A DNA stretch of 22,302 nucleotides from the IMG/VR virus record IMGVR_UViG_3300027847_000800, positions 1-22,302 of that record, one strand, 5' to 3'. The translations under genes were made by a program, and so were the position numbers. This document shows, piece after piece, positions 1 through 16,400 of this stretch (position 1 is its first letter; each line of letters opens with the position of its first letter). This DNA is from a virus. Under the pieces are notes generated by a model. The model made no database searches. It saw only the letters and a program-made list of their open reading frames with translations, and was not told the origin of the DNA.

Positions 1-517
1 CATCCATTGCAGATTTTCCCATTGCGATGTTGTCAGCACCAGAAACATCAGCTCCACCTAACGCTGAAAGACCAATCGCAATGTTTTGATCTGCAACTCC
101 GTCAGAAGCGGCTAATGCAGAACGTCCTATAGCGATATTGTCTGCACCATCTGGTGAAGCACTTAGTGCCAATCTTCCTATAGCTACGTTATCTGTTCCA
201 GTTGTTAAAGCATCACCAGAAGTTAGTCCCATTCCAATATTATTAGAACCAGCAGTTACAGCAGTTAATGCAGATTCACCAATTGCAATATTACCTTCAG
301 CTTGACCCGCACCACCACAAGCAAGTACTCCTGCACCTAATGCTAGTTGACCAATTGCTATATTCAGACAAGCGGTAGTACCAGCACCGAGTGCGTTTGT
401 TCCCAATACTACGTTACATTTTCCTGTAGTTATAGCATCACCAGCAGCACATCCAATTATAGAGTTTCCTACACCAGTAGTAACACCAACTGCAGCTCCC
501 CCTCCAATTGCAACGTT
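1..517 (-). repeat. Coding repeat array, NxAIG units
   Basis: The region encodes at least eight recognisable N-x-A-I-G type units in the partial fibre gene. At DNA level the units share words such as GCTATAGG and TCTGCATTA but are not identical, so this is an old or diverging protein repeat and not a recent tandem duplication. Confidence 0.7.
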
Positions 518-565
518 CCCCAATGCATCTTGTGTATCTACACCTGAAACTGTTCCTTTTGCCAT
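1..565 (-). CDS. Tail fibre-like protein with YadA-head-like NxAIG repeats, N-terminal part (partial)
   Basis: An open frame starts at ATG 565-563 and runs without a stop to the window edge, giving the first 188 residues of a longer protein. The start follows AGGAAA at 571-576. From residue 17 the protein consists of repeated units of the form N-x-[AI]-[IM]-G followed by [SLR]-A-L, for example NVAIG, NIAIGQLAL, NIAIGESAL, NIAIGRSAL and NIAMGKSAM, spaced roughly 20-30 residues. This resembles the left-handed beta-roll head of trimeric YadA-type adhesins and similar repeats in phage fibres. A pair of units (AAGDAITTGKCNVVLG and TSGDALTTGTDNVAIG) looks like an internal duplication. Four cysteines lie between residues 39 and 83. 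It is the last gene of the fibre cluster and may share the late promoter at 1121-1128 with the 148-residue gene. A receptor-binding or fibre-shaft role is inferred; the C-terminus is not visible. Confidence 0.8.
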   Translation of the reverse strand, partial: MAKGTVSGVDTQDALGNVAIGGGAAVGVTTGVGNSIIGCAAGDAITTGKCNVVLGTNALGAGTTACLNIAIGQLALGAGVLACGGAGQAEGNIAIGESALTAVTAGSNNIGMGLTSGDALTTGTDNVAIGRLALSASPDGADNIAIGRSALAASDGVADQNIAIGLSALGGADVSGADNIAMGKSAMD

Positions 566-632: not shown

Positions 633-1079
633 TTATGCAACGTCATCTAAAAGTGCTGCAACAATACAATCAGCTGTTCCTGTGGATGTAATTGCATGAA
701 CAGCAGCTACTGTTGTAAGTGTAAGTCTTGCATACCAACTTTCACCAGGCCCAACATAGATATTTCCTGTAGCGGCTGCAGCAGTTCCAGCAGCAATATT
801 AATATAAACAGATGTAGTCGCATGAGTGTTCTGTATGAATATAAACTTGACTGTATCCGCAGTATGAACTGCCGTAGGTGCTGTATCATCATCGACTGCT
901 GTATAATCTGTAAAATACCCAGCAATTAAATCAGTTGAAGCGGCACTTACGGAAGTGAATTTGTAATACCATTTCTCGGTTGAATCGGCAGGAGTAACGG
1001 TCATTGCTCCTGAGATAGTTTTAGCAATCTCGTCTGGTAATACGGTAAATGTTCCTGAGACTGTTGCAGCATCTGCCAT
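633..1079 (-). CDS. Small beta-rich virion-type protein, unknown function
   Basis: A 148-residue protein beginning MADAATVSGTF. It is rich in Thr, Ala and Val with very few Lys or Arg, as is usual for phage surface proteins. The C-terminal half reads as alternating beta strands (VKFIFIQNTHATTSVYINI, then a GPGESW turn), a pattern seen in small structural proteins encoded beside marine phage fibre genes; that comparison is from memory. There is no signal peptide or membrane segment. The start is well supported: AGGAG at 1088-1092, eight bases before the ATG. A perfect T4-type late promoter lies 41 bases upstream (1121-1128). It sits between two fibre-like genes, so a fibre-associated, adaptor or decoration role is plausible but not shown. 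Confidence 0.75.
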   Translation of the reverse strand: MADAATVSGTFTVLPDEIAKTISGAMTVTPADSTEKWYYKFTSVSAASTDLIAGYFTDYTAVDDDTAPTAVHTADTVKFIFIQNTHATTSVYINIAAGTAAAATGNIYVGPGESWYARLTLTTVAAVHAITSTGTADCIVAALLDDVA

Positions 1080-1120
1080 TTTGTTTTCTCCTAAAGTTTA
1101 TTTAAAGTTCTTATTATTAT

Positions 1121-1128
1121 TATTTATA
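1121..1128 (-). promoter_or_regulatory. T4-type late promoter (TATAAATA)
   Basis: A perfect match on the minus strand to the T4 late promoter -10 box, which is used by host RNA polymerase with the phage sigma-like factor gp55. It begins one base after the stop codon of the 395-residue gene and lies 41 bases before the ATG at 1079, leaving room for a short leader with the AGGAG site. It probably drives the 148-residue gene and the partial fibre gene. Confidence 0.7.
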
Positions 1129-1129
1129 T

Positions 1130-2317
1130 TTAATTACTTATTGCACTAGCTTTAAAACCAGCAACTATTGAATATCCTGCACGATTTGCCAAGTAAACAT
1201 ACCAACCACTCGCATCAGCTGTTATTCCTACACCAACATTTCCATCTGTCATATCCGAAGCTGCAGAATAACCATCTTCATCTAATACTTCAAAGGTACT
1301 AGCAATATTACCAGCATCAGCGATAGTATGAAGATAACAATCTGCTGGAACTGCTTTTTCTGCACGAACAAAGAAATTTGCTATTCGATAAGCGTCATTC
1401 GTAGCGGTTACGTGCCTCACTGAAACTTGTAACTGAAATGCTGCAGTAGTGCTGTTGACCAAATCTGAACTTGATAACAACAGATTGTGTGTATCATCTG
1501 TTACTGTAATTCCTGTTCGTTGTACTTCTCCATCAGCTGCTGTAACATAAGAACCAAAATGTCTTATTGCAATTTGATGACCTGTGGCAATGTTTACTGT
1601 TTTATCAAGTGTAATTCGTTGTTGGTCTCTGTAATAATCGGTGTCTTCGACTAACAACAACCCATTGAGATAAACCATAGCATGATTTACAACAGTCAGA
1701 TTTGGAACAGTTAGACTAAAAACTACATCGTAAGTTACATCAGCATCAGAGTCTCCACCAAATGAGAGTGCATTTCCATCAATATCTGTTAGAACAACAT
1801 TACCTGAATCTGTTACAGTTAAAACTTTGTATCTTCCAGCTGCGATTGTATCTGTTCCAGTAGCAGAAATAACACTAATCACATCTCCAACAACTAATCC
1901 GTGAGAACCTTTAATAAGTGTATCCGCCGATGTATCGTAATCTCCGTCTGTTACTCTTGATGTTGCGTGTAAAGTTGTTTCTGCTGCTATTACTGCATGA
2001 TCAATCTCTTGCATTGTTTGGGGTAAAGTTGGATTCTGAAACGCATAAGAAACAACTTCTATAATATCAGTAGAGGCAACGGCTGTATTAAAAGTTATTG
2101 TATTAGTTCCTGAAAGAACATAATCTCCCCCAGCACCAGAAGCCCCTTCTCTAAGCATTGCTCCGTTGAGATACACAAAACACGCTTGTTGGTCAAATGC
2201 TTCTGACGGATTCAGAACAGTGCCACCAGCTGCGGCAGAACCTAAATGTGTGCTCCGGCGCAAATGTTGTTTTGCGTTGTCTAGACCCCGAAATCCCGAT
2301 ATGTATTTAATTCCCAT
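1130..2317 (-). CDS. Tail fibre-like protein with duplicated YLNG modules
   Basis: A 395-residue protein. Two copies of a fibre-type beta module can be seen: residues about 47-92 (FVYLNGAMLREG, GDYVLSGTNTITF, then DIIEVVSY) and residues about 213-256 (AMVYLNGLLLVEDTDYY, RITL, then HQIAIRHFGS). The [VY]YLNG-x-L-L...DY pattern recurs in phage tail fibres. Between them, residues about 137-181 hold a SHGLxxGDxIxVxxATGTD segment also found in the neighbouring 672-residue fibre. The C-terminal third (after about 260) has no recognised domain. Start: AGGA lies nine bases before the ATG, 19 bases after the preceding stop. The frame ends at 1130, immediately before the late promoter of the next gene. 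It is most likely a fibre or fibre-tip component; the exact role is unknown. Confidence 0.75.
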   Translation of the reverse strand: MGIKYISGFRGLDNAKQHLRRSTHLGSAAAGGTVLNPSEAFDQQACFVYLNGAMLREGASGAGGDYVLSGTNTITFNTAVASTDIIEVVSYAFQNPTLPQTMQEIDHAVIAAETTLHATSRVTDGDYDTSADTLIKGSHGLVVGDVISVISATGTDTIAAGRYKVLTVTDSGNVVLTDIDGNALSFGGDSDADVTYDVVFSLTVPNLTVVNHAMVYLNGLLLVEDTDYYRDQQRITLDKTVNIATGHQIAIRHFGSYVTAADGEVQRTGITVTDDTHNLLLSSSDLVNSTTAAFQLQVSVRHVTATNDAYRIANFFVRAEKAVPADCYLHTIADAGNIASTFEVLDEDGYSAASDMTDGNVGVGITADASGWYVYLANRAGYSIVAGFKASAISN

Positions 2318-2336
2318 TTACTTTAATCCTATGTAA

Positions 2337-2699
2337 TTAAGCATCGAAAAGAACTGATAATATTGCATCAGCACCTGAAGCAGTATCCGACACGACTGAT
2401 ATATCATCGTTGCCCACCAAAACTATTTTACCTTGAACGATTTCTACAGCATCCCCTGCTGGAATAGTGAGTGTTTTAGCAAGGTGTGTCGTTTTACTTC
2501 CAGCTTGTTGATAGTGAACTACGTCCACTGCAATAGAAGTTGTCAAAATGTTTGAAATCATCAAACCAACCATGATTACTGCTTTACCAGAAGTCAATCC
2601 TTGTATTCCACCACCAAACGAACCAGAACTTTGACTTACAAGATAGTATGCCGTAGTTCCTATGGCTTGTGCTGTATGATTTTTAAATTGTGTTGCCAT
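2337..2699 (-). CDS. Small beta-rich virion-type protein, unknown function
   Basis: A 120-residue protein, MATQFKNHTAQAIGTT at its start. The second half carries a pattern of beta strands, LTIPAGDAVEIVQGKIVLV followed by GNDDISVVSD and a hydrophobic end (ILSVLFDA). Small proteins with an IPxGxxxEIxxGKIVL core are common next to fibre genes of marine T4-like phages and are usually listed as structural or hypothetical (recalled, not searched). There are no Cys residues, no signal peptide and no membrane helix. An AAAGAGAT site precedes the ATG, and a near-consensus late promoter (2737-2744) lies 37 bases upstream. It is followed after 19 bases by the 395-residue fibre-like gene, so the two probably form one unit. 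A fibre adaptor or capsid/tail decoration role would both fit. Confidence 0.72.
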   Translation of the reverse strand: MATQFKNHTAQAIGTTAYYLVSQSSGSFGGGIQGLTSGKAVIMVGLMISNILTTSIAVDVVHYQQAGSKTTHLAKTLTIPAGDAVEIVQGKIVLVGNDDISVVSDTASGADAILSVLFDA

Positions 2700-2736
2700 T
2701 TTTTAATCTCTTTATTAATTAAGTGTTTCTAATAAC

Positions 2737-2744
2737 TATTTATC
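2737..2744 (-). promoter_or_regulatory. Probable T4-type late promoter (GATAAATA)
   Basis: A seven-of-eight match to TATAAATA on the minus strand. It overlaps the stop codon of the tail fibre gene (TAA at 2740-2742) and lies 37 bases before the ATG of the 120-residue gene. This is the same geometry as the perfect boxes at 13468-13475 and 1121-1128, which is why the mismatch is accepted. Confidence 0.5.
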
Positions 2745-4758
2745 CCAATGCAATTGCGATAGCAGTAGCGAATGTTTCGGTTGATATATTCTCATATGTT
2801 GTTCCGACAGTAACACCTTCTATTTTTGAATTATCGGTATTATATCGTAACGCTCCTGTTGTAGCAGCAGGTACAGTTGCGGATGCTGTAGAAGCAGGTT
2901 TTTGTGCAGACGTTCCTTTTGGAAGTACAAGTTGTCCTGTATCGTCTATATTGAATGAAGCATTAACTTCCCAATAGTTATCAGTATCATCCCATTTGAT
3001 TTTATGAACACCAGTATCGCCCGGAACATATATTCCTGCGTCATCTACAAGTGCATCTGTTTGAGGCCCGACCCACGAAATTGTTCCTGTAGAGTTACTA
3101 ACAATATTAGTACCGTCTTTATCAGCGAGAGTAAAAGTATTGCCATCTGTCACAGTAACTTTTACAATATTTTCAGCAAAAGTTTCGGTTTGAGAAGATG
3201 TTAGACCAGTTCCAGTTGCTGTTACTAGAAAAATAATGTCATCAGAAGATAGTCCATGACTAGCAGATGTTACAACTGGTGGTGTAGCAGCAGTATATGT
3301 TGCTCCGGCGGTTACAGCACTTTGTGTTCCGAGAACTAATGTCTTGTCTTTTACTACTGTGGTTGTTGTATTGATTTCGGAAGTTGCACCAGATACAGAA
3401 AGGTTTCCAGTAACAACAAAATCACCGGCGATTGTTAGGTCATTTCCTATTGTCGCGTCACCGGCTTGTGTAACACTAAAAATATCAGCAGAAGAGTTTG
3501 CAACTTGAAAAATCTTGGTGCCGGCAACAGCGGAATCACTTCTCATGTAAAGAGTTGGCCCTGTAGATGCACCATCACTTACAAATGAAACTAGGTTACT
3601 TGAGTGTGTTCCAGCAGAGTTTATCGATAATGCTGAACCAGTAGTCAAACTTCCTGATGTTATATTGAATGTGTTCTTTGTTGTGTGAGAAGAAACAATA
3701 TCGAGTGAAGCGTTTCCTGTTGCTTTAGTGGATGTGATTTTCACACCGTATCCCGCATCCGATAAAACATTAAGAACTGTCGAACCAGCAGCATCAGCGT
3801 GTTCTTGTCTGAAATCAACAACGTTTCTTGTATCAGTAGCAGCACCAGTTGATTCGACTCTGAGAGCAGAGCCAGTTGTTAATGCAGAACCAGTAACATC
3901 GATAATTGTTCCAGTTGTCATTACCGAATCAACTACAACAGCATTTGCGGTAGTATGAGCTGAATCTATCTCAAATGAAGGAAGTCCAGTTGCAAGGGTA
4001 GAATCGACGAAAATACCCCGACCACCATCAGACTTAATCGATAATGCGGTGGTTGCAACGGCTGCAGGAGCATCATTGGTAATTTGAACTAATTTTCTTT
4101 CGGTGGTATCTGTTGATGTCGATGAAACAGTAAGTGGTGTTCCAGTAGTAAGACCATTGTTTATAATGGTAGCAGTATTTCCTGCACCAGCTGCAGATGT
4201 TACTGAAAATACATTCGCAGTAATACCAGAAGCAGCAGTGATTGTTTGTTGTGAGTTGAAAATATGTGCGAAGTTTTTTGCAGTAGAACCAAGCATAGAT
4301 CCTACGGATACTCCACTTCCAGCAGAAACGTTTGTAGTTGGAATAACATTAGTTGAAAGAGTAGCATTTACGGATACAATATCATCACTTGTACTACCTA
4401 TGACAGTATTCCCATTAACTGTCATATCTGTATCAACAGTCAAATCAGCCGCAAATTTTGAAGTCAAAGTTGCGTAAATTCCACCAGTTGTGAGGATTGA
4501 CGCTTTTGTTCCATCCGATGCAGCGGCCAAAGCAGAGGTTATGTTCAGTGCTGTTGTAGTGGTATCGTGTGTAACCGAAATAGTATTCAAAGTGGCCGCA
4601 TTAGCAACATAACTTGAATCGTCATCACGAAAAACTATTGTATTAGCAGTGATTGCGTTTGTACCTTGATTGAGAGTGGTATTCACTTCGTTGGTACGGA
4701 TTCTCCAAGTATCAAACGTATCCGTTACTGCTACATTACTTCTATTTACGCCTGCCAT
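2740..4758 (-). CDS. Tail fibre protein with tandem beta repeats
   Basis: A 672-residue Thr/Ser/Ala-rich protein with a modular fibre layout. The N-terminus (residues about 11-32, VTDTFDTWRIRTNEVN) matches the attachment segment of many phage fibres. A long repetitive shaft follows, including a 90-residue tandem repeat (copies from residues 238 and 328, and a degenerate one from about 402) with shared LTTGSAL and SDxGxG blocks. Residues about 446-470 hold the common fibre motif LSVSGATSEINTTT followed by VVKDKTLVLG. Residues about 498-545 form a SHGL-type module. The end (about 633-672) has GALRYNTDNSKIEG, a frequent fibre C-terminal signature. AAAGAGAT precedes the ATG, which overlaps the 83-residue gene by 13 bases. 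A perfect late box lies 94 bases upstream. The protein probably trimerises and contributes to host recognition; no chaperone gene is obvious. Confidence 0.85.
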   Translation of the reverse strand: MAGVNRSNVAVTDTFDTWRIRTNEVNTTLNQGTNAITANTIVFRDDDSSYVANAATLNTISVTHDTTTTALNITSALAAASDGTKASILTTGGIYATLTSKFAADLTVDTDMTVNGNTVIGSTSDDIVSVNATLSTNVIPTTNVSAGSGVSVGSMLGSTAKNFAHIFNSQQTITAASGITANVFSVTSAAGAGNTATIINNGLTTGTPLTVSSTSTDTTERKLVQITNDAPAAVATTALSIKSDGGRGIFVDSTLATGLPSFEIDSAHTTANAVVVDSVMTTGTIIDVTGSALTTGSALRVESTGAATDTRNVVDFRQEHADAAGSTVLNVLSDAGYGVKITSTKATGNASLDIVSSHTTKNTFNITSGSLTTGSALSINSAGTHSSNLVSFVSDGASTGPTLYMRSDSAVAGTKIFQVANSSADIFSVTQAGDATIGNDLTIAGDFVVTGNLSVSGATSEINTTTTVVKDKTLVLGTQSAVTAGATYTAATPPVVTSASHGLSSDDIIFLVTATGTGLTSSQTETFAENIVKVTVTDGNTFTLADKDGTNIVSNSTGTISWVGPQTDALVDDAGIYVPGDTGVHKIKWDDTDNYWEVNASFNIDDTGQLVLPKGTSAQKPASTASATVPAATTGALRYNTDNSKIEGVTVGTTYENISTETFATAIAIALG
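3556..4047 (-). repeat. 90-residue tandem protein repeat in the fibre shaft
   Basis: Copy one starts at 4047 (ALSIKSDGGRGIFV) and copy two exactly 270 bases later at 3777 (VLNVLSDAGYGVKI). Matching blocks follow in the same order: STLATG / STKATG, SAHTTANA / SSHTTKNT, and SALTTGSALRVES / GSLTTGSALSINS. A weaker third start (TLYMRSDSAVAGT) occurs 222 bases further on at 3555. Most synonymous positions differ, so the duplication is not recent. Confidence 0.75.
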
Positions 4759-4997
4759 TTGTTATCTCTTTCGATGTGATCTTGTAGTAGTTGTCGTATT
4801 TCAGTAATTTCATCACGAAGCGACAAACATTGTTGTATCTGTTCCTTCATAATATTTATATCATTTAATTTATTATGAATTTCCATTTTCTTGTGATATT
4901 CTTCTCTATTTGCCATAAGGCTTGCTCTGTCGTTTGACAATAGAGCATTGTTGTTTAAATCTCTTACTAATCCTGACTTATCTGTTTTGACTAACAT
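4746..4997 (-). CDS. Small coiled-coil protein, unknown function
   Basis: An 83-residue protein. The N-terminal part (LVKTDKSGLVRDLNNNALLS) resembles a short head seen in small proteins between structural genes of marine T4-like phages, which read roughly as 'L-[IV]-[RK]-D-x-x-T/N-x-A-L-L'. From about residue 30 onward it is charged and helical with heptad spacing (IMKEQIQQCLSLRDEITEIR, then QLLQDHIE), suggesting a coiled coil. Such proteins could serve as linkers or assembly factors; no function is established here. The ATG lies one base after the TAG stop of the giant upstream gene, and its 3' end overlaps the fibre start by 13 bases, so the three are probably translationally coupled. It has one cysteine and no membrane segment. 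Confidence 0.78.
   Translation of the reverse strand: MLVKTDKSGLVRDLNNNALLSNDRASLMANREEYHKKMEIHNKLNDINIMKEQIQQCLSLRDEITEIRQLLQDHIERDNKWQA
4853..4860 (-). promoter_or_regulatory. T4-type late promoter (TATAAATA) inside the 83-residue gene
   Basis: A perfect late -10 box on the coding strand, inside the coiled-coil gene, 94 bases before the ATG of the tail fibre. It could give the fibre its own late transcript apart from the giant upstream gene. Because it lies in coding sequence (Ile-Asn-Ile codons), chance occurrence is more likely than for the intergenic boxes. Confidence 0.45.
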
Positions 4998-4998
4998 A

Positions 4999-7900
4999 CT
5001 AGAAATCCAGTGCTATTGCTTTCATGTCTTTAATTTTAGGAATCACCGTACTCGATGACGCTGCCAAAACAATTTTTAATGAGAATGTTTTAAACTTATC
5101 ATATGTCTGACCGCCAGAAATATAAGTGATAGCACCATCAACAGATTTATAAGAATACTGATTTATTATACTCTCATTTGCAGAAATTAAATTTGAATCT
5201 GTTTCTTGTGTCATCAAGACGTATGGTTTTTCTTCAAAATCGCCAGGATCTTCAGCGTTCCAAACTCTGTAATAAACCTTGATTTCCGTATCTTTTGGTT
5301 TGTAAGCATTTAGAATAACTCTTATATCCTGAGCATCAAATCCATCTTCTAGGTTTACTCTTCGTGTAATGTATCGTGACTTAGAGTTACCACCAGAAGC
5401 GTTCAATTCACTCTGAACAGTTGCTGTAGCATGGTTTGAACCAGTAACTGCATCAGATAATGTTAGAGTTGGTGTTTCGTAATATCCAGTACCACCATTA
5501 GTGACAGTTATTGCAGTGACAACATTCGCAGAAACGGTTACAGATGCTGTAGCAGTTGTTCCAGATGTTGGAGCAGAAAAGGTTGCAGTAGCACCAGAAG
5601 CGGGATATCCTGCACCACCGTTTGTGATAACGATATCAGAGTTCGCAAGTGAACCTAAGTTTACTTGGTTTTCTACTGTAATAAGATTGATTCTCGACAA
5701 ATCGATTGCTGGAGAAATCTTAGTGTCAGTAGTTGATATCGTAGCACGTAAGTAAAAGTTATTGGCAGCGTATGAGTTCAATCCAGTTGTACTCACAGCA
5801 GCTGCTGTCTTTTTCTGTGTAGAAAGTGTTATATTCTTATTTGCTGAGAAACTAGTAAATGTAGCGTCTATCTGTGCAGTTCTATTAGCATCAGATGCAA
5901 CAGTCTTCGACTCATCGATGCCCCTGAAGGAATAGTCGATAGAAGTGTTAGAGAACGTCAACTCACTCGTTGATAGCTTAAACACATCGTAGTTGATGCC
6001 AGAAGTGTTGCCAGACAAAGGTTCTGCAATACTAGACAGATATACCGCGTGTGTGCCTGTGTTGAATTCACATCTGTTCACTCTGAACATCATTTGTTTT
6101 TCAACGTTTGGTTGCCAAATAGAAGAGTTCTGAGGTTGATAGAAAGATGCAACAAATGGTTGTTGTGAAACTTTTATGTCTGTTGTATTCTTTACTGTCT
6201 CTCCTAAGTTTGCAATATGAACACTATAAGCATCAGAAGGTGTGGTCAAAACAATAGCGTATTCATCTGGATACAGATAAACTGGTGACTCAAAAGTAAA
6301 CCTTGTAAATGTTGCATCTGTTGCAACACTTGGTGCTGATGAGTTTGCAGTTGCATCCGATGGATTCAGTATTACTTCAGAGAAAGGAATAATCTGTGAA
6401 GAACTAGGAACTTCGTTGATTACTGGCCTCAGTTGAAGAGTGACCGGCATCGTCGCATCTACTGTAGAAAAGAATATGTCTATACTACTTGCATATATTC
6501 CATTTTCATGTTCACTCTTGTCAACTATGAATGTCTGTGAAAGTGGGTTTATCCAGTTAGTTGATGTGGAAACACGATTGATTGTATCCTGTGTTACGTT
6601 CTTTTCTTTTACGTTTTCTCGTTTTGCGTCCATCGGTCTTGTTGATGACATTCTTCCTGTGCGAGATTCAAGAAGACCCTGAACTCTAAAGATTCGTTCA
6701 GCAACCGATTCTGTGCTTGCAATGGTATCTGTCGAACTATCTGTTAGACGGAAAAGTCTTTCTCCGACTCTAAACGTATTCTCAGGAATAACCAGTTCAC
6801 CAGCAACCACACCATTTCTATCAGCTTGTAACGCGGTAGAAAATGTAGGATTATTTGTCGCTACTGCCGAAACGTTACCATTTGATTTAGCAGAACCAGT
6901 TCCTGTGAAAAGTTCACCAGTAGCAAACCCACCGGCTCCTGTAACGGTAACAGAAGTTGTTCCCGAACTAATGTATATCCCACTAGTAGCACCAACTACA
7001 GAAGTTGTTGTTGTTCCAAAGTCACCTGAAATACTATTTACAGTTATTGTAGCTGCAGTAGCATTTACTGATTGTAACGTTGCTGTCGCGGTAGTCGTTG
7101 AGTTTGAAAATGTAATACTTTCACCTATAACAGCATCTGGATCAACAAGATGAGTATTAGCAGATAAAGTAACTGTTTGAATGATATCACCAATTATTAC
7201 ACTTGATGAGTTTTGATAAAGTGAAACTCCTGTTGCTCCACTCGAACCAGTTACAGTTTGTTTATCTCCCCCTGTACCAAAAACACCAGAGTTAGCAGAA
7301 CCTGTGTTTGCTGTATAAGATAGAACATATCCCTGTTTTGTATTCGCACTTACTAATGTGTTATCGAAATAAGGATAGAACGTGCCGTTTGGTTTCACAC
7401 CCCTTGCAACAAATGATATTGTCTGTTGTCGAATGTAAGGAACTATGGTAATACTGACTGTTCTATTTCCCACAGCTCTTTTTATTGTCTCAGGTGGTGT
7501 AGATGAAATTATACCAGTTCGTGTTTTGTTTTTACTTGTGACATTTGTGTCTCTGGAAATAGTATTTGATGTTGTTCCTGTTTTACGACTCTTAATCAAA
7601 TTGTCGTTGTTTACCTGAACACCACTCCAAGTGAAACTCCAATCATCCCATTGTTTATCAAATCCGTTGTTGTTTCCCTGAACCCAATGGTCATTCAAAC
7701 CCTCAAGATTGATAAGAACAGTTGGGCGACCAGTTTCTGCAAACCAAACATCATTTGGTGGAGCAAGGGTCAACTGTCCGTTGAACTGAGTTGTTGAATA
7801 TGGATTGATTGTTTCTGTGTTACTCGCAAGTGGTTGAACAACAAGATTTGCAGAACTATAAGCAAGTGTAATCAAATCTCCTGTTTTTGCCGTATTCGCA

Positions 7901-10900
7901 CTTGAACCAGTTGTATCGATGTCAAACCTGAAAGAGTCAGCACTGAATGATGGTCTTAGTTCTTTCAACTCAAAGTCGATAGCTGCTTTGAAATCTTCAT
8001 TAGAAACGTCACCGATATTGTGACCGTTGAATGAGTCAACTACTATACCATTTTTGAATCTTTCTGTTCCACTCGCAGAATCTTTAATCGAAAGATCGTT
8101 AGCTTCTTTTTCTAATAGTGTGAGTGCTGTATAGTATTCTAATTGGTCTACTCTTTTCTCGATTTTGCCGATGTCTCTCATTGTGAATCGGCGATTGTCA
8201 ATATATTGAGTGTCACAATCAGAAGCATTGAAAGTAAATGCTGGAATATCCAGATTATAAAGAGTCATCGCATCTTCATCATCTGCTGGTAAAATTGGGT
8301 CTTCTGAAGAAATACCAGTTATTACTTGGAAAGTTCTGTCTTTTGTTAGTGTAAGTTTGTCTTTTCTTGGCAAGTAATAAACAACGTTTGCTGTTATACT
8401 TACATCTGCATCTGGTAAATCGTCATTAGCAAGAAGACCACCGGCACCAGTTGCACCATTTGCAACACCTTTAGTTGGGCGAAAGTCAATACAATCTCTC
8501 AGTTGTTTTGTTATACCAGTTGAGGGACTTGTGAAAGAAGGTATATCAGCGTAATCGTCACTATATGATTCCACCGAAAAGTAAGAGTTTGCAGCAGAAT
8601 GAGAGTAATAATCAAAAGTGATGAGAACGTTATTTGCTGGTGGTGTTTGACCAGCTTTCAGAGTAATCGAACCATGATCATAAAAATTATCCTTTTGACC
8701 ATTATTGAAAGAAAACCTTGAAGTAATATTATTAACGTGTGCTGTATTTCCCTGAGCAGTTGATACAATTGCAAACTGAGTTGCGGCATCACTTCCAGCA
8801 GCTGCAGCTTCGATTACGTTTGTTACTTGTAACACATCCGAAACTCCAAGACTTTGTGTTCCAGTGACAGCAGCAACTACTGCATGACCATTAGCTAATC
8901 TCTCATTATGTTGAGCGTCAGTTCCAGCAGTATCCAAAAGAACACCACTATGAGTGATACCCGAAGCAGCTGCAATAGAAGTTGCGTTTACTCTTGTTTT
9001 TGTTTTTGGAGATTTAGCAGCATAATCACAAGTTGCGTAAACTAAACCAGACAATGTTCCTCCACCAAAAGTAACACCATCTCGTCTTGGTGTTATTGTT
9101 ACTTGATTGGTAGCAGCAGTACAAGTGACAATCACATCTATAACTTCACCAGATGCAATAGCAACAGAATCTCCTGTTCCTGTAGCAGTTACACTTGCTC
9201 CATCAGTAGCAGCAACCAAAATATAGTTCGCTGCGGGATTTGATAGTGCAGTTCCTGCTCCAGCCAGACCCTCTGTTTCAAAAGTTGAACCAGTAGGTGA
9301 AGTAACAGTAGCACCAGTAGAAGTTGCAAATGAAAATGAAATAGCTATTTTTTCTTTTCTTTGATACTTGATTCCTTCAGCAGTGAAGGTTGTTCCATCT
9401 TGACTACCAATACCTTTGACATTATCAAACCCGATAGGAAATACTAATGAGTTTGTATCAGTATCAAATAGTTGTGTGTTACTTGTTGCATCTCCTGTAT
9501 CAACTTTACTTGTAAGGTCAATATCCATTCCGGGCGTGTTTGCGAGACCATAAGTAGAGTTTGCTATTGCAATTGACTCCATCTCTCTTGTAGAAGATGT
9601 GATTGACACTTGATTAGCAATATCGACACTAGTTGAAAAAGCAAGATTTATTGTAGCTCCAATTCCATTTTCATTTAAAATTTTATCACCCGAATCTGTC
9701 AGGGCACTTCCATCCGTGCTGTTTATGATTATATCACCATCACCAGTAGATTCTTCAAGTCCAATACCTATAATCACACCAGATAAGATAACTTCTCTTG
9801 TTTCGGAACCCAAAGTAATTTTTGCACCATCATAAGCACCAAGTTTAGTAGAAGTTTTTGCGGCTTCAAGAAGTATAGAAGTTTCTCCTGAAACATATCC
9901 TCCTATACCAACATTTGCTGTCAACGAACTCAATGCAGTATCGAAAATATACATATCAAAAATAGCGGTATTACTTGTAGCTACATTCGTAAATGCACCC
10001 GAATCATAATCAATTTGACGGATTCTGGTAGTTCCAATTTTCGTAGAGTTGTAACTATTTGCTGTAGTGCTTACGATATTTGATAACTGGACGCTGTGCA
10101 AGTCAAAACTTGTTGCAATAGCTTCGGGGTCAAAGTTCGATTCTTCAGAGTTACCAGCATTGAAGTTTGTGACTTTTACGTTATTTCCAAAGTTTGGATT
10201 GATAGGAAATGTTGTCTGTGTAAATACTTCTCTTCCTTTTTTGACATCAACATATTCTGCACCGATACTCTCGTATTCATAACCCTTGACGTATGCTTTT
10301 CCTGGCTCTAGTGCAGCGGAAACACGATTGTTATTGTGTAATACCTGAGATGTTCCATCACCCAAAGCAGTGGAAACAACCATCGATGTCGCGTTGGTTA
10401 TTGAAGAAACGTTTGCCGTCGCGGTGGAATCAGAAGAAAGATATATGTTATCTCCTACCACAAAGTCATTTTCAAAATCTGTGAGAACACCAGTAATAGT
10501 AGTATCAACTGACGCGGAAGTAACTCCTGTTGCTCCTTGATGGTCTATAACTTGAATAGGAAATGGTTTGATTGTGTAGTCACCCGATTCATCGTATGTT
10601 CTTCTTGCGAGTGTTTTTTCAATCTCACCATAAACTGGATATTTTACGTTCTTAGTTGGAGTTCCAGCAACTACTCTCATCAACTCAATAAAGTTAGAAT
10701 CTGCATTAGCAGCAACAGGGTCAGTTGATGTTGTTTGTTTTTTAGCAAGAACGAGTTCAATCTTGAAACGAGTTGCGCCCGGAGCATTTGCATTTGTTGT
10801 TCCAGAAGCGGAATCGAGAAGTGTAGTATCAGTATCACTATCGATAATAGATTCTGTTGTTGTTAATCCAAGTCTGTATGTGGGTTCGTTACTATATTTT

Positions 10901-11463
10901 TCAAGAACTAATGTTTGTGCGAGACAAAGAACAAAAAATCCATTTACAAAAAATACACCACGATTGATACTAACAATAGATGCACCACCAGTATGAGCAA
11001 TAGAAGCAACAGTTGCTGTTGTGGAAATCGAACCTTCTAGGTAAATCGTTGACCCAGCGGTAAAAGCTGTTCCAGATATGAATTTGACAATGAGTGTGGG
11101 AGCATCAGAACCGACTAAATCGATTGCAGCTATGACTTGAGCTCTTGTTACTCCTGCACCAACCGTTACACTTGTATCGGAAATAATACTAGATGAGAAG
11201 TCAGTTGCAGTATCAGCAGTAGTTAATTTCAGAAAGGTTACTTCTGTATCTAAAGTAACTTCTCCACCAAGAACTTTACTTCCATCCTTGAAGATATGGT
11301 CACCTAAACGAGATGACTGTTTCTGTAGAATTGTCTGTAACTGAGTAAGTTCTCTTCCTTGAACGGCAAAGCCGGGACGGAAAAGAACTCTTAGAAACTG
11401 TTTGTCCTCATCGTAATCGTCATAATAAGGAGTAACGTTAAAATCTGTAGTAACATTTGCCAT
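4999..11463 (-). CDS. Giant DUF4815-type baseplate/tail fibre-attachment protein
   Basis: A 2154-residue protein. Residues about 6-70 carry the DUF4815 signature of marine T4-like phages: NVTPYYDDYDEDKQFLRVLF, then RPGFAVQGRELTQLQ and GDHIFKDGS. Further recognised blocks are TKQLRDCIDFRP (about 985), a helical RDIGKIEKRVDQLEYYTAL segment (about 1090-1120), an aromatic DKQWDDWSFTWSG stretch (about 1265), VPYIRQQTISFVARGVKPN (about 1341-1361), NPLSQTFIVDKSE (about 1636) and a conserved end with RRVNLEDGF and EIKVYYRVWN (about 2030-2070). Two NGGxGY units occur near 1950-2010. The family is virion-associated; its position after gp8 suggests it takes the place of the T4 gp9-gp12 peripheral proteins, which is an inference. 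The start follows an 83-base spacer with only a weak ribosome binding site. The stop is TAG, one base before the next ATG. Confidence 0.85.
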   Translation of the reverse strand: MANVTTDFNVTPYYDDYDEDKQFLRVLFRPGFAVQGRELTQLQTILQKQSSRLGDHIFKDGSKVLGGEVTLDTEVTFLKLTTADTATDFSSSIISDTSVTVGAGVTRAQVIAAIDLVGSDAPTLIVKFISGTAFTAGSTIYLEGSISTTATVASIAHTGGASIVSINRGVFFVNGFFVLCLAQTLVLEKYSNEPTYRLGLTTTESIIDSDTDTTLLDSASGTTNANAPGATRFKIELVLAKKQTTSTDPVAANADSNFIELMRVVAGTPTKNVKYPVYGEIEKTLARRTYDESGDYTIKPFPIQVIDHQGATGVTSASVDTTITGVLTDFENDFVVGDNIYLSSDSTATANVSSITNATSMVVSTALGDGTSQVLHNNNRVSAALEPGKAYVKGYEYESIGAEYVDVKKGREVFTQTTFPINPNFGNNVKVTNFNAGNSEESNFDPEAIATSFDLHSVQLSNIVSTTANSYNSTKIGTTRIRQIDYDSGAFTNVATSNTAIFDMYIFDTALSSLTANVGIGGYVSGETSILLEAAKTSTKLGAYDGAKITLGSETREVILSGVIIGIGLEESTGDGDIIINSTDGSALTDSGDKILNENGIGATINLAFSTSVDIANQVSITSSTREMESIAIANSTYGLANTPGMDIDLTSKVDTGDATSNTQLFDTDTNSLVFPIGFDNVKGIGSQDGTTFTAEGIKYQRKEKIAISFSFATSTGATVTSPTGSTFETEGLAGAGTALSNPAANYILVAATDGASVTATGTGDSVAIASGEVIDVIVTCTAATNQVTITPRRDGVTFGGGTLSGLVYATCDYAAKSPKTKTRVNATSIAAASGITHSGVLLDTAGTDAQHNERLANGHAVVAAVTGTQSLGVSDVLQVTNVIEAAAAGSDAATQFAIVSTAQGNTAHVNNITSRFSFNNGQKDNFYDHGSITLKAGQTPPANNVLITFDYYSHSAANSYFSVESYSDDYADIPSFTSPSTGITKQLRDCIDFRPTKGVANGATGAGGLLANDDLPDADVSITANVVYYLPRKDKLTLTKDRTFQVITGISSEDPILPADDEDAMTLYNLDIPAFTFNASDCDTQYIDNRRFTMRDIGKIEKRVDQLEYYTALTLLEKEANDLSIKDSASGTERFKNGIVVDSFNGHNIGDVSNEDFKAAIDFELKELRPSFSADSFRFDIDTTGSSANTAKTGDLITLAYSSANLVVQPLASNTETINPYSTTQFNGQLTLAPPNDVWFAETGRPTVLINLEGLNDHWVQGNNNGFDKQWDDWSFTWSGVQVNNDNLIKSRKTGTTSNTISRDTNVTSKNKTRTGIISSTPPETIKRAVGNRTVSITIVPYIRQQTISFVARGVKPNGTFYPYFDNTLVSANTKQGYVLSYTANTGSANSGVFGTGGDKQTVTGSSGATGVSLYQNSSSVIIGDIIQTVTLSANTHLVDPDAVIGESITFSNSTTTATATLQSVNATAATITVNSISGDFGTTTTSVVGATSGIYISSGTTSVTVTGAGGFATGELFTGTGSAKSNGNVSAVATNNPTFSTALQADRNGVVAGELVIPENTFRVGERLFRLTDSSTDTIASTESVAERIFRVQGLLESRTGRMSSTRPMDAKRENVKEKNVTQDTINRVSTSTNWINPLSQTFIVDKSEHENGIYASSIDIFFSTVDATMPVTLQLRPVINEVPSSSQIIPFSEVILNPSDATANSSAPSVATDATFTRFTFESPVYLYPDEYAIVLTTPSDAYSVHIANLGETVKNTTDIKVSQQPFVASFYQPQNSSIWQPNVEKQMMFRVNRCEFNTGTHAVYLSSIAEPLSGNTSGINYDVFKLSTSELTFSNTSIDYSFRGIDESKTVASDANRTAQIDATFTSFSANKNITLSTQKKTAAAVSTTGLNSYAANNFYLRATISTTDTKISPAIDLSRINLITVENQVNLGSLANSDIVITNGGAGYPASGATATFSAPTSGTTATASVTVSANVVTAITVTNGGTGYYETPTLTLSDAVTGSNHATATVQSELNASGGNSKSRYITRRVNLEDGFDAQDIRVILNAYKPKDTEIKVYYRVWNAEDPGDFEEKPYVLMTQETDSNLISANESIINQYSYKSVDGAITYISGGQTYDKFKTFSLKIVLAASSSTVIPKIKDMKAIALDF

Positions 11464-11546: not shown

Positions 11547-13433
11547 TTACAATCGCTCAGAACTCGATGATAAGCAGAACTCGATTATTAATTTTATATC
11601 TTCCGTCTGATCAGCTGCACGAGCAACAGGAGCACGATTTTCAATATAGATTATTTTACCAGAACCGATTTGCATCGCACCATTTGCTACATTTGTTAAT
11701 ACAGCATTACCGCCACTATATGTAATAGCAGCAATTGACGTAGATACTCCTGTAAAACTACTTGCAACGTTTGATGTTGTACATTGGAAAGAACCAGGCT
11801 TTCCATCATACCCTGCACTTGTGTTGGCTCCATTCGTAATATTGACAACTGTCATCGTACTTGCTGAAGCGTTGACATCAATAACATATCCTGTCGCACC
11901 ATTTGCACCAGTAGCGTTTTGACTAACTGTAATATCATTAGTAATCGCAGCTGTATTAGATGTAAATGTAAATGTTTTTGCTTGAGTAACAGCAGCATCT
12001 GTGATTCTTGTGTGTCCAGCATCTTGGTTAGGGTCAGTCAACAAACCAATTTTACGGAAATCATTTGTTGTTGTAAATTTTCCTGACTCATCCTGTGTAA
12101 GTTTTGTGTTTATCATTATAAAGAAACCACCCAACTCTGCAACAGGGTCATATCCATGTCCACCTTTTGGGGGAAGAATGGTTGTAATAGCTGCACTAGA
12201 TCCAGTTCCAAGTCCTTGTTGTTCTACTGACAAGGTTGCTGTCGTATAACTGTTACCACCACTTACTACTGTTACACCACCAACCGCATCCGTATCTGAA
12301 CTATTCGCAGTCAAGATAACTTCAGCACCATGACCATCTCCGTTTATTTTTGCAAATGGAGCAACATTGGCAGTTATTGTTCCAGATAATGCAGGAACAG
12401 TTGCGTCCAAAGTAAGTGTAGCATTCGGTGAAGAATAACTCATATCAGTGATTTTTCTCACATAAGAAGCACCACTAAAAGTAAAATAAATTGAAGAGTT
12501 ATTATAATAGTCTGTCGTTGTAAGAGTTGGATTGGCCATAGTGAGTGTTACGCTCTCACTGGAGTTTGTTATCGTCAGATTATTTTCAAAGTGATATCCA
12601 GTACCATCGGTATTGACAACAAAAACATCCAAAGCACCATCAACTGTATTGAATTCGATTGTCGCTTGGTCTGAACCATCATTTTTTGCTCCACTAGTAC
12701 CCAATCCACCAGCACTCCCTGTATTTCCGTATGCGTTAGCATCTCGTAATTGTTTTACAGGAATATAACTCGATGTCACAAACTTCAGAGCATCGGATGC
12801 GGAAATGGAATACATATACTTCCAAATATAACCATCAGCAAGTGCGGCAGGAGCTCCAGCATCAGTAGATACTGCTGTTGGTTCGACTGTCGAAACTTGT
12901 GGATAATTTGTACCACTTATTTCTACTTCTGCGTTATAAAGACACTTGTAAACATTGAAGTTGGTATTCATTACATACATTGGATACAAACTTGCGGTAG
13001 CTGTTCCAGTTCCAGATGTATTTGCTAATGTCTGTGATGTTCTCGTAGATAAAAGTTCACTTAAAACTCCAGTATCTTTGAACATCGAATAATGTTGACC
13101 AGTTGTCCAGTTATGTCGAGTAACAACGTGACTTACATCAGCTGAACCAACTTTTTTAGCAGCAATCATATCCTGCCAATGAGAATATGATGTATTTGAT
13201 GTTGAGTCAGAGGAAGGACTTGTATTTGTGCTTGGGTCTGGTATTGAGGTATCACTAAAAGACCCCGACCACGAATCAGATTTTCCAATGAAAAGATATG
13301 CGTTTGTTGAAAAAGCCGTAGAAACAGCAGTATTAGAAGTAGCTGTTCCTCCAATTAAAGCTCCCTCATCAAACATTTCAAAAAATTGTCGAGAGTTATG
13401 TATTCTAAAATTCTGTGTTACTAATGCAGGCAC
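11547..13433 (-). CDS. 8: Baseplate wedge protein gp8
   Basis: A 628-residue protein with the gp8 family hallmarks in order: HNSRQFFEMF near the N-terminus, an AYLFIGKSDSW segment, SHWQDMIAAKK (about 82-93), VVTRHNWTTGQHYSMF, YPMYVMNTNFNVYKCL, EPTAVSTD, DGYIWKYMYSIS (about 200-211), KGGHGYDPVAELGGFF (about 420-436) and a C-terminal IYIENRAPVARAADQTEDIK. In T4, gp8 is a dimeric wedge protein binding gp7 and gp6. T4 gp8 has 334 residues; the extra length here lies mostly between residues 215 and 415 and contains TDGTGY and SGGNSY beta repeats. The start codon is GTG, chosen because AAGGAG at 13442-13447 is eight bases upstream and no in-frame ATG lies before the conserved region. A perfect late promoter lies 34 bases upstream. 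Confidence 0.92.
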   Translation of the reverse strand: MPALVTQNFRIHNSRQFFEMFDEGALIGGTATSNTAVSTAFSTNAYLFIGKSDSWSGSFSDTSIPDPSTNTSPSSDSTSNTSYSHWQDMIAAKKVGSADVSHVVTRHNWTTGQHYSMFKDTGVLSELLSTRTSQTLANTSGTGTATASLYPMYVMNTNFNVYKCLYNAEVEISGTNYPQVSTVEPTAVSTDAGAPAALADGYIWKYMYSISASDALKFVTSSYIPVKQLRDANAYGNTGSAGGLGTSGAKNDGSDQATIEFNTVDGALDVFVVNTDGTGYHFENNLTITNSSESVTLTMANPTLTTTDYYNNSSIYFTFSGASYVRKITDMSYSSPNATLTLDATVPALSGTITANVAPFAKINGDGHGAEVILTANSSDTDAVGGVTVVSGGNSYTTATLSVEQQGLGTGSSAAITTILPPKGGHGYDPVAELGGFFIMINTKLTQDESGKFTTTNDFRKIGLLTDPNQDAGHTRITDAAVTQAKTFTFTSNTAAITNDITVSQNATGANGATGYVIDVNASASTMTVVNITNGANTSAGYDGKPGSFQCTTSNVASSFTGVSTSIAAITYSGGNAVLTNVANGAMQIGSGKIIYIENRAPVARAADQTEDIKLIIEFCLSSSSERL

Positions 13434-13467: not shown

Positions 13468-13475
13468 TATTTATA
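13468..13475 (-). promoter_or_regulatory. T4-type late promoter (TATAAATA) before gp8
   Basis: A perfect late -10 box on the minus strand. The stop codon of the 1429-residue gene (TAA, 13471-13473) lies inside it. It is 34 bases before the gp8 start, leaving a leader that contains AAGGAG. It probably drives gp8, the DUF4815 gene and the 83-residue gene. Confidence 0.7.
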
Positions 13476-16400
13476 CCGAAACTCTTTGGTCTATTTGATG
13501 TCTGTGAAAAAGGAATCCATTATTATTTTCATAAGGAACACCTTTATAACTAAATGGTTTTTCTAAATGTATTAACTGTCGTGTAGTATCTGACTCGTTG
13601 ACTGTAACAATCGAATCTTCAGTCATTATTCTGTCACCAGCGTCTGATGTTCCGTCTGTGCTGTCTAAAACAATATTGTCAGTAACATTATCTTCATCTG
13701 ATATGTACTTGGCACCAATCGTTACAAATTCAGAATCAGTAATGATAATCTCATCACCAGCAGCAGTTGTATTAATATCTATCTTTTCCAATTCTATTAA
13801 TATTGTTCCTATATTTGATACGGTTCCACTATAAGATGCATCCGTTGCAGGTAAACTGTCATCAAGTAGTAATGCTTCACCAGCATTAGCAGTTCCGTCT
13901 GTACTATCTAGGATGATCTGACTTTCGATTTCTAAAAATCTAGGTCTGGTTACTAAAGTATCACCAGCGGAAAATGAACTACTAAAATCCGCAGGTGCAG
14001 TAAACTCATATTCGTGTATTTGATAATCCCCAAACTCTCCAATATATTCATTTCTCATCAAACCACGAAATGGATCGATTCCACTTGATATTTCTTTTCC
14101 TTGACGGAATAGTTTTCCATTTGTTGTGATAGTTTCATTGGATATATCAAAATCTATGTTAGTTCTATCATCTGGTAATCCTGCTTCACTTAAAGTAAAC
14201 TCTAATCCTTCTTCTGTTTTAATTAATCCAGTGTTAGAATATTCACCTTGATATTTTGAATCACTATCTGATATTCCATCTTCCTGCAATGCAAATCCAC
14301 CATCTTCTAAGATAATATTTGCTTCGGATTCTGCATCTGTTACTCTGAAAAGTGTACCATTTATATCTTCTAAATTATTTCCAATAAAATCATCTAGATA
14401 AATCTCATCATTATCATGAAGGAAATGTTGTTCGGATGTTGTTATTTTGGTTCTAGCTTCTTCTGCGAGCATATAATCACCTGTCTCATTAAGAACTGCA
14501 CCATCTTCAGCATAAGTCTCTAGGTATAAGTATTTTTCGACTTCAATGTTACTTATATCTTTGACCGACATAAGAGAGAAAAATTCTGCGGGATTTCCAG
14601 AAGTTTGCAGAAGTTTATTCAGAAGTTCTATTACACTCTCAATAGATTCCGCTTCTATTCTGAGTCTACCAAAGTTTGAATGTTCTCCCACACCATAATC
14701 AACAGAAGAAACTGGAATACCGTCTTCTAGTAATATTGTTCCTTCTAGTGAGTCTTCTAATCTCATAGCAGGAACACCCAATGTCAATTGAATTTCGGTA
14801 GGTGATACTTTGAATTCAATTTCTATATTGAGTTCAGTAGTAACTTGAGTTTTAAGATCATCGAGAACAAAACTGATAAACTGCTGTCCCATCTCTCGAT
14901 ATATCGCTTTACCATCATCATCAATCGAATTGATATCATTAGCACCTCTATCAAACATTTGTGAGTTTAATAGAGTTACAATCGCAACTTCACCGAATAA
15001 TTTAAATCCAGCAGGGTGAAGAAGTTTCAACACATCTTCTTGCCAAACATCAATCGAATCTGTTGTTTGTAGAACGTAAGAATAATCTTGATAATAATTG
15101 TTATCTTGAACTTTTTTTCTAGAACTTGGTTGACCAGATTGATCAGCAAACACACCTTCTTTAGTCTTTGTTGGTGTAATCACAGGAGTCAATGTTGCTT
15201 GAGTGGATTGAACTGGTGCTGTCACAGAAGGATCAGTGAGATAACCATGTCCATATTCACTCACGGTAACCGCGGTGACAGTTCCACCCAATGTTCCAAT
15301 TGAGATTGAAGCATTGTTTCCGAGAAAACCACCATTTACTGTGTCTACTTCACCCCTATCAGTATAATAAGAGTTTTGTATAGTTGCAGTTGGTGTTGAT
15401 TCATATCCACTACCATGAGATGTGATAGCAATAGTATTGATTGTTCCAAAAGTTTGTTGTTCAAGTGTCATCGCACTCTTCATAGGAGTGTTCGCATTTG
15501 AAATGAGAGTTACTGCACCTTCTGTAGTTCCAGTTCCAGAAGTGGTAATAGTGAACACACTTGAATTAGCTACTGTTGTAGGAGTGAAAACTGCCCCATC
15601 ATCACCAGTTCCAGAAATTGTTCCAGAAGTAAAATCGTGTGTGATAGACAAACCAGATATAGTAGAATTTAGAGCAGTTCCTCCATCTACATCAATATTG
15701 ACATCTTCGCTGTTTATTCTACCCTCTCCCGAAATGGATGCACTATAAAGTGCCGAGTCTTCTGGAATTCCATCATCTTGAATCAATTCTCCTGTTCCTG
15801 TAGCGGTTTCTAGTTCTATTTGACCTATTCCATTTGGATTGATAAGATAGACAGTATTTCCATTTGAGAATGTTCCAAGAGTAGAATGACCAAAGACAGT
15901 TTTAGTCGAACTTTCGTAACGAGTAATGGTGAATTGTTTAGATGTGGAACCAAATGTTGCGTTGTCAGTTAGCATATCATCTTCTACTGGGTCAGAACTA
16001 AAATCATTGTTGATAGTAAAAAATTGATATACATTATGACCAGCACCAATAGTATTAGTTACAGTTGTTCCTGTTCTAGAATACGTTCCACTCAAAGCAA
16101 TTAATCCAGCAGCTGCAGTTGTATAGTTAGCATCATCAAAGTCAACATCGGATGAAGGGTTGGTAATTGTTTGGTCAAAAACCACCACATTAGTAGCACC
16201 AGAAATCGCCGCTCCAGTTGAATCGAATAGAAAAAGAAAATCTCCGTTTACTATTGCACCGAGCGAAGTATTTTCTCTCGACCTGTCGTATGTTCTCATT
16301 TCAGAATTATCGATAGAAATAATTTCTCCGACCTTTGTTGCGTCAGCAAAGGTTTCATCGTTTGCTACCAGATAACCAGAAACAACCGCGACTCCAAATG

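Follow-up and report, generated by a model that had tools for sequence, protein, structure and literature searches.

A probable VrlC fibre dock and probable small jelly-roll fibre cassettes in a virus of the cyano/pelagimyophage type

The outer baseplate and fibre region

The IMG/VR record IMGVR_UViG_3300027847_000800 is a virus record of 22,302 bases, which was analysed over its whole length (hereafter the window), and all its tail genes are on the minus strand. The genes behind gp8, a baseplate wedge gene, probably make up the outer baseplate and fibres of a virus of the cyano/pelagimyophage type, with a dock built on the protein VrlC (2154 amino acids, aa) and with cassettes in which a 120-aa protein serves as a fibre joint. 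We assign this explanation as a whole a probability of about 0.68. The run of gp25, gp6, a gp7-like protein and gp8 leads straight into VrlC, its 83-aa neighbour and an island of fibre genes, in the order of gp105-gp108 of Listeria phage A511. In the direction of transcription, the window encodes proteins of 69 and 650 aa, gp25, gp6, a 1429-aa wedge protein, gp8, the 2154-aa DUF4815 protein, proteins of 83, 672, 120, 395 and 148 aa, and a cut fibre. The open reading frames (ORFs), coordinates and sizes of the original prediction, made from the DNA letters alone, were all verified on this strand. Genes were assigned with Pfam and PHROGs, and gp8 also with phmmer searches of the PDB. The features are the following (distances in nucleotides, nt):

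19636..20025, minus strand: gp25, inner wedge / sheath initiator (PF04965, E = 6.8e-16)
17764..19626, minus strand: gp6-like baseplate wedge (PF21379, E = 3.9e-19)
13471..17760, minus strand: wedge protein in gp7 position, 1429 aa (PF23786, E = 5.2e-12; phrog_17744, baseplate wedge, E = 1.2e-43)
11547..13433, minus strand: gp8 wedge protein (PF09215, E = 7e-12; phmmer against the PDB: 9f4a, E = 1.4e-11, and T4 gp8 1n7z, E = 1e-7; ATAAATA 41 nt upstream)
4999..11463, minus strand: VrlC / DUF4815 outer-baseplate protein, 2154 aa (DUF4815, E = 3.2e-53; phrog_358, E = 0)
4746..4997, minus strand: conserved 83-aa neighbour of VrlC (phrog_473, E = 2e-5; coiled coil judged by eye only)
2740..4758, minus strand: first fibre, 672 aa, with the N-terminal motif TDTFDTWR (assigned by its position after the 83-aa gene, its TF..W motif and homologues in loci L009, L013 and L010)
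2737..2743, minus strand: ATAAATA site that precedes the 120-aa gene and overlaps the end of the 672-aa gene at its stop codon (motif scan)
2337..2699, minus strand: 120-aa predicted jelly-roll protein of a fibre-associated family (family profile; AlphaFold2 model; homologues in 17 phage records)
1130..2317, minus strand: 395-aa fibre-like protein (N-terminus similar in L010 and L013; recurring beta domain)
1121..1128, minus strand: TATAAATA site before the 148-aa gene (motif scan)
633..1079, minus strand: 148-aa predicted jelly-roll protein, virion place uncertain (454 IMG/VR relatives; AlphaFold2 model)
2..565, minus strand: N-terminal part of a repeat fibre or spike, truncated by the contig end (phrog_4636, tail spike, E = 2.5e-17)

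The comparisons cover 175 sequences, made up of 174 loci (numbered with L) and the window; L001-L003 are pieces of the window and are inside the ORF set of the family and neighbour counts. Raw counts are inflated because there are near-copies among the IMG/VR contigs (e.g. L037/L044, L049/L053 and L051/L081), and three counts (83-aa adjacency, TF..W motif and occurrence of the 120-aa family) were repeated after dereplication at 90% on the VrlC C-terminus.

VrlC and the dock of the first fibre

The original prediction had suggested that the giant protein might combine connector functions. This was not upheld: the protein is a VrlC/DUF4815 protein homologous to A511 gp106, and not a merger of connector genes. 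DUF4815 is matched in three stretches, and a profile of 18 VrlC proteins (window included) matches gp106 over most of its length (E = 3.7e-89, Z set to 1000). A fusion of gp9-gp12 was considered and rejected, as the same profile, run on the PDB, hits a single sequence at E <= 1. This is ORF65, the DUF4815 protein of 9euf and related entries (E = 2.2e-82); neither T4 gp10 nor any other chain was hit. The 9euf structure presumably represents a Herelleviridae baseplate; the literature search found no paper for this entry, and the accessible parts of the publications on phage 812 and phage JS1 hold nothing on a DUF4815 chain. Of 50,697 phage records, 1368 have a VrlC/DUF4815 match; by name, these include 376 Synechococcus, 61 Cyanophage, 24 Prochlorococcus and 282 Staphylococcus records. 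Among the matches listed, the VrlC proteins of the nearest phage records are 35-37% identical to that of the window.

Double-layered baseplates are known from A511 and other Herelleviridae, and gp106 belongs to that of A511. Bacillus phage homologues have been named 'Tail fiber/VrlC' and equated with gp106 (PMC11406892). In A511, gp106 is described as peripheral: its trimers are pyramids seated on the gp105/gp104 portion of the fibre network, and during adsorption these pyramids turn towards the cell; gp107 is a possible part of the pyramid and gp108 is the receptor-binding distal fibre (PMC9863714). The gp8, VrlC, 83-aa protein and fibre of the window parallel gp105-gp106-gp107-gp108, with a wedge protein before and a fibre or receptor protein after. 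The two systems differ in that gp106 has 1151 aa, whereas the window VrlC reaches 2154 aa with large inserts and a conserved C-terminal part, and in that gp6 and gp8 of the window are of the T4 type. By analogy, VrlC may form gp106-like pyramids in this virus.

The same arrangement is also known from closer relatives. VrlC is a core baseplate protein in cyano/pelagimyophage-type viruses, where a variable 'host recognition cluster' of tail-fibre genes lies between VrlC and gp14 and a double-layered baseplate was predicted (PMC7029224). The window shares with the HTVC008M group the core VrlC, the wedge order and the fibre island directly after VrlC, but the fragment ends inside a fibre, before gp14. 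Small jelly-roll cassettes are unmentioned for this cluster in the accessible part of PMC7029224. The order gp8, VrlC, a protein of 72-75 aa and then fibre, hypothetical or other genes is present in HTVC008M, Mosig, Melnitz, phiOC and S-SCSM1, in the last of which VrlC is annotated as a virion protein. In eight loci (L036, L040, L042, L047, L050, L059, L073 and L084) a separate ORF of 425-528 aa encodes the end of VrlC, so that the gene appears to be split there, unless the contigs carry frameshifts.

Compared with the published cluster, the newer points concern the gene next to VrlC and the one that follows. A homologue of the 83-aa protein adjoins VrlC in all 51 loci with at least 300 nt downstream, the window and five isolates included (40/40 after dereplication), and the gene after it, when at least 120 aa long, has TF..W within its first 42 residues in 37 of 47 cases (26/36 dereplicated). 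The 83-aa family profile retrieves S-SCSM1_20 (E = 8.7e-14) and, weakly, A511 gp107 (E = 0.012), whose gene directly follows gp106. The 83-aa protein and gp107 (L189, 23064-23285) also share an RDxHSxAL-like stretch besides their position after VrlC/gp106.

The 672-aa protein has homologues in the same place in L009 (77% identity over 417 aa), L013 (52%) and L010 (45%). Pfam gave no match for it, and in PHROGs none was better than E = 0.27. An RRG-type N-terminal start replaces TF..W after the 83-aa homologue in P-RSM4, L078 and L079 (L006 is also listed), which suggests a second type of plug for the same dock; in HTVC008M, Mosig and phiOC the corresponding gene was found to have no TF..W. VrlC and the 83-aa protein may thus form a socket for which the TF..W N-terminus would be the plug.

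The 120-aa family and its fibre neighbours

The original prediction had further proposed two adaptor-fibre cassettes, each made up of a small beta protein and the fibre encoded downstream. An iterated profile search assigned 102 ORFs in 78 of the 175 sequences to the family of the 120-aa protein, which itself scores E = 5.5e-20 in this profile, started from it. The protein matches phrog_26609 (E = 3.6e-8) and phrog_1276 (E = 7.5e-6), which are the same sequence family and have the annotated members S-SCSM1_27 and phiOC_p357; both phrogs are listed as being of unknown function, but we read the family here as fibre-cassette proteins across tail types. A search for related loci with the 120-aa protein as query confirmed none, relatives being present in loci obtained otherwise, and tblastn detected the homologues in phage records listed above.

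The family lies beside fibre genes in both contractile- and short-tailed phages. In all six annotated records examined, the homologue has a neighbour annotated as a tail fibre or as carrying a tail-fibre domain: HTVC019P (Autographiviridae), HTVC035P (with T7-like internal virion proteins), Roseobacter CRP-9 and 023Pt_psg01 (whose records state no tail type), Melnitz (Kyanoviridae) and S-TIM5, which we take to be a myophage. A neighbour with a fibre mark accompanies 53 of 75 dereplicated copies, against 146 of 1688 background ORFs, these marks having been chosen after the neighbours were seen. One next-gene neighbour matches the tail fibre phrog_18673 (E = 4.4e-32), another neighbour scores slightly below the threshold of the T7 fibre N-terminal domain and a third carries Peptidase_S74. 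In 33 of 74 dereplicated cases (50/1772 among ORFs), the gene after the family member has a start of the xLGN type; this motif was picked after viewing the neighbours, and the contrast is made smaller because the background ORFs include genes that follow the family. The xLGN start is present in 22 of 36 cases in loci of the s148 type, in 4 of 5 others and in 7 of 33 of the VrlC type.

Of the VrlC loci with at least 2.5 kilobases downstream, 19/35 have the family, seven of them with two or more copies (15/28 and five after dereplication). Up to six family ORFs were seen in one locus, downstream of one VrlC. In L037, L044, L049, L053 and L081, the ORFs that come after family genes repeatedly have an RPxGYxxPxGLT start and, in the sequences shown, a glycine-rich stretch too; in L037, L044, L053 and L081 such arrays lie downstream of VrlC. 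In the near-identical contigs L037 and L044, the family domain forms residues 221-295 of a 311-aa fibre-like ORF. The member of S-SCSM1, S-SCSM1_27 (112 aa, E = 1.6e-17), carries the annotation 'virion protein' and is flanked by a long tail fibre and a tail fibre, which are likewise marked as virion proteins; for this phage, 45 virion proteins were reported by mass spectrometry (PMC9602691).

The family profile has no member in T4, HTVC008M, P-RSM4 or S-CREM2. In a survey of named records, 12 of 16 have a member, which is not a frequency, as W09-W13 and Melnitz were picked for holding the family. A 'tail fiber attachment' protein of S-CREM2, ORF84, was considered as kin and rejected, since the profile finds nothing in that genome; it is a parallel only, being a 129-aa virion protein encoded directly before a long fibre (PMC10665884). 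The literature search listed nothing on small jelly-roll fibre cassettes in the text that was accessible.

Predicted structures of the small proteins

AlphaFold2 modelled the 120-aa protein as all-beta (pLDDT 87.5) and the 148-aa protein as nearly all-beta (pLDDT 85.7), and by the fold matches of these models both are predicted jelly rolls. In the PDB, the 120-aa model comes closest to the Ena pilin 7a02 (Z = 9.4), the trimeric cement protein of KHP40, 7dou (Z = 9.1), and the HFTV1 turret protein 8qpg (Z = 8.8); 7a02 is likewise the best row for the 148-aa model (Z = 9.2). These matches are ties among a broad set of jelly rolls, and therefore give the fold and not the function; the searches list common jelly rolls, and a family that is unlisted is not thereby excluded. 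In BFVD, the 120-aa model has 133 matches at E <= 0.001. Phage proteins of the same size come first, and virion proteins of S-TIM5 and S-SCSM1 and a 661-aa collagen-repeat protein are among the matches. The two small proteins were also compared as one sequence family, which was rejected with an hhalign probability of 0.7%.

Late-promoter-like sites

The motif NATAAATA is a consensus for cyanophage late promoters. Each small gene was originally thought to open a pair with its own late promoter, and both genes do have ATAAATA upstream, starting at a distance of 44 nt for the 120-aa gene (as GATAAATA) and of 48 nt for the 148-aa gene (as TATAAATA). The sites are nevertheless not special to these two pairs, because five of the 12 window genes have ATAAATA at most 110 nt upstream. 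This positional enrichment (0.92 expected under base shuffling) includes a site only 15 nt from gp25 and, for the 672-aa gene, a site inside the 83-aa gene. Counted over the whole window, the motif shows no enrichment (five against 6.8 expected), TATAAATA occurs three times against 1.3 expected (15 of 100 shuffles reach this), and a sigma-70 scan gave no excess (50 sites against 63.6 in shuffles).

Across the loci, 16 of 36 unique copies of the 120-aa family in VrlC-type loci have ATAAATA in the 120 nt upstream, against 1.7 expected, as does 1 of 38 copies in s148-type loci, against 1.3 expected, the shuffles preserving base composition only. The few s148-type loci whose proteins were scanned have an SU10-type adaptor and non-T4 head genes. 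The contrast between the two types supports the late-promoter reading, although it is blurred by a third group of short-tailed phages and S-TIM5, in which the motif precedes two of five copies (0.2 expected).

The 148-aa protein, the 395-aa protein and the partial fibre

The 148-aa protein has 454 relatives in IMG/VR (63-68% identity among the 80 matches listed) and no match in the 50,697 phage records; it is possibly a marker of abundant viruses that have no sequenced isolates. In the window its gene stands between the 395-aa fibre-like gene and the repeat spike. Elsewhere it adjoins a gene of the 120-aa family in 31 of 84 copies (79 of which have both neighbours), and two neighbouring copies of it are found in L094 and L128. 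A fibre-marked neighbour occurs in only 18 of 64 dereplicated copies, by the same marks chosen after the fact, and for this reason the second of the two supposedly equivalent cassettes is weak.

The N-terminus of the 395-aa protein is 62-65% identical in L010 and L013, where it also comes after a 120-aa homologue. Its beta domain recurs in other ORFs, including wedge-sized ones, and the protein has no match in the phage records. The partial fibre, in which YadA-like repeats can be seen by eye, also matches phrog_6002 and phrog_23837, both 'virion structural protein'.

Evolutionary and functional scenarios

The observations can be put together as follows. VrlC oligomers would rest on the gp8 layer in the manner of gp106 in the double-layered baseplate; together with the 83-aa protein they would carry the first fibre, the TF..W N-terminus being the plug. 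The 120-aa small jelly roll, probably a trimer, would cap or join a fibre shaft and connect successive fibre proteins. Its gene, as a late cassette of its own, could be copied or lost, and the same family would serve short-tailed phages; the 148-aa protein may act likewise in the next cassette. The part of the original prediction that took a small gene and its fibre as a unit is well supported for the 120-aa protein, given its fibre neighbours in unrelated phages, the promoter-like site in many VrlC-type loci and the fusion in L037/L044, and we extend it here across tail types; for the 148-aa protein it is weakly supported. The distribution of the 120-aa family suggests that it may have been transferred between phage types.

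A wider scenario may be sketched tentatively. Marine phages of unrelated tail types could share a mobile fibre-joint kit, in which a separate trimeric jelly-roll joint of ~110-120 aa bolts any fibre to any shaft. In VrlC-type myophages each joint would open its own late transcription unit, so that fibre cassettes could be stacked behind a universal dock of VrlC, the 83-aa protein and the TF..W plug.

Several observations weigh against the proposed dock and joint cassettes. The xLGN signal stems mostly from s148-type loci, and the 395-aa protein of the window is without it; the fibre marks were defined post hoc; the S-SCSM1 member sits with other fibres behind neck genes and not directly behind VrlC; the family is optional, because HTVC008M, P-RSM4 and S-CREM2 are without a member; capsid cement and turret proteins match its fold about as well; and the ATAAATA contrast is not clean in the third group.

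One alternative is that the 120-aa protein is a receptor-binding knob of the C1q/TNF type, a trimer on the fibre tip rather than a connector between segments. The phiOC homologue, which adjoins a tail fibre, is annotated 'c1q globular head like', the fused copy in L037/L044 is C-terminal in its fibre, C1q domains occur on the fibres of contractile injection systems (PMC12923769) and TNF/C1q-type rows are among the weak Foldseek matches of the model. However, in the window, in L010, in L013 and in several named phages the 120-aa gene is followed by another fibre gene, and Pfam C1q is not matched by the protein, so that a knob seems somewhat unlikely. A role of the small jelly rolls as decoration proteins of the capsid or neck, with genes that merely happen to be near those of the fibres, is quite unlikely. 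Such a role would agree with the fold matches to the KHP40 cement and the HFTV1 turret, tied with the best rows, and with the 27 of 84 copies of the 148-aa gene that are followed by one gene type matching 'virion structural' and 'tail protein' phrogs. It is opposed, for the 120-aa family, by the high share of fibre-marked neighbours (with the marks chosen as stated), by the domain fused to a fibre and by the S-SCSM1 member lying between two fibre virion proteins.

The reading of a VrlC dock with joint cassettes yields a testable list of parts for attachment and fibre change, with a conserved dock that has an A511 counterpart. The list also has an exchangeable small jelly-roll gene that accompanies fibres in contractile-tailed and short-tailed marine phages, and it could help to annotate fibre genes that sequence searches miss.

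The T4-type gp9-gp12 set

The starting observation of the original prediction, that no gp9-gp12 set is recognisable, holds within the window. None of its 13 gene products matched gp9/gp10 (PF07880), GP11 (PF08677), gp12 or Collar (PF07484) in Pfam scans at E <= 1, in which the HMMER filters remove most matches above 0.1, and a gp9/gp10 N-terminal profile gave no match. The replacement of the T4 adsorption set in the window is thus supported. Relative to T4, gp25, gp6 and gp8 are homologous here, but the window has no GP11 or Collar/gp12, and VrlC and the fibre island stand in place of gp9-gp12. This absence is ordinary, because it is a known trait of an abundant group of ocean phages: the lack of the T4-style set is a published, clade-wide state of cyano/pelagimyophage-type viruses (PMC7029224, PMC3037559). 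In the accessible text, gp7, gp10 and gp12 are placed in the non-cyanophage core (PMC3037559), and a table counts gene 9 among the shared cyanomyovirus genes, the marks for each phage not being visible (PMC2984593).

For the group as a whole, the statement that nothing resembles gp9 has to be restricted. GP11 and Collar were found in none of 20 relatives (five complete isolates and 15 IMG/VR contigs, 17 to 172 kb long and mostly fragments) and in the T4 control, 21 records being searched in all, whereas the gp9/gp10 N-terminal family is present in four of the 20 as well as in T4. A profile built from three of those relatives and T4 was run on 24 records, window included; beyond its own members it matches S-SCSM1 and the metagenomic contig G008, with a marginal match of 38 positions in G001. 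Among seven complete isolates, the domain is present in P-RSM4, Mosig, Melnitz and S-SCSM1, in each upstream of gp8 and not behind it, and this profile search did not find it in HTVC008M, phiOC or S-CREM2. Homologues elsewhere in the genome, which the original prediction had named as grounds for giving up the replacement, thus exist, for gp9/gp10, in the former four relatives and were not found in the latter three. In Mosig, a second stretch resembling the gp9/gp10 N-terminus (MT647606.1, 46842-47069) was seen within a 1246-aa frame annotated as a tail fibre.

The position of the domain in these four isolates would be compatible with gp9-gp12 lying elsewhere in the genome of this virus, the apparent replacement being a mere rearrangement. 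We consider this decidedly unlikely, as the window spans gp25 to VrlC without the domain and GP11 and Collar were found in none of the 20 relatives, five of them complete isolates, despite the positive control.

Wedge and upstream genes

That VrlC does the job of T4 gp7, as proposed in PMC7029224, and not that of the gp9-gp12 periphery is very improbable, since a separate 1429-aa wedge protein (PF23786, phrog_17744) occupies the gp7 position between gp6 and gp8 and since the VrlC homologue gp106 of A511 is described as peripheral (PMC9863714). This wedge protein (13471-17760) shows, by eye, GGxGY and LLEDG-type repeats. The window gp8 also matches the BW3TFN model (E = 0.001, below the model cut-off). 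For the 650-aa protein encoded upstream of gp25 (20046-21998), PHROGs gave nothing at E <= 0.001 and Pfam nothing better than E = 0.13; tblastn matches it in six of 93 loci.

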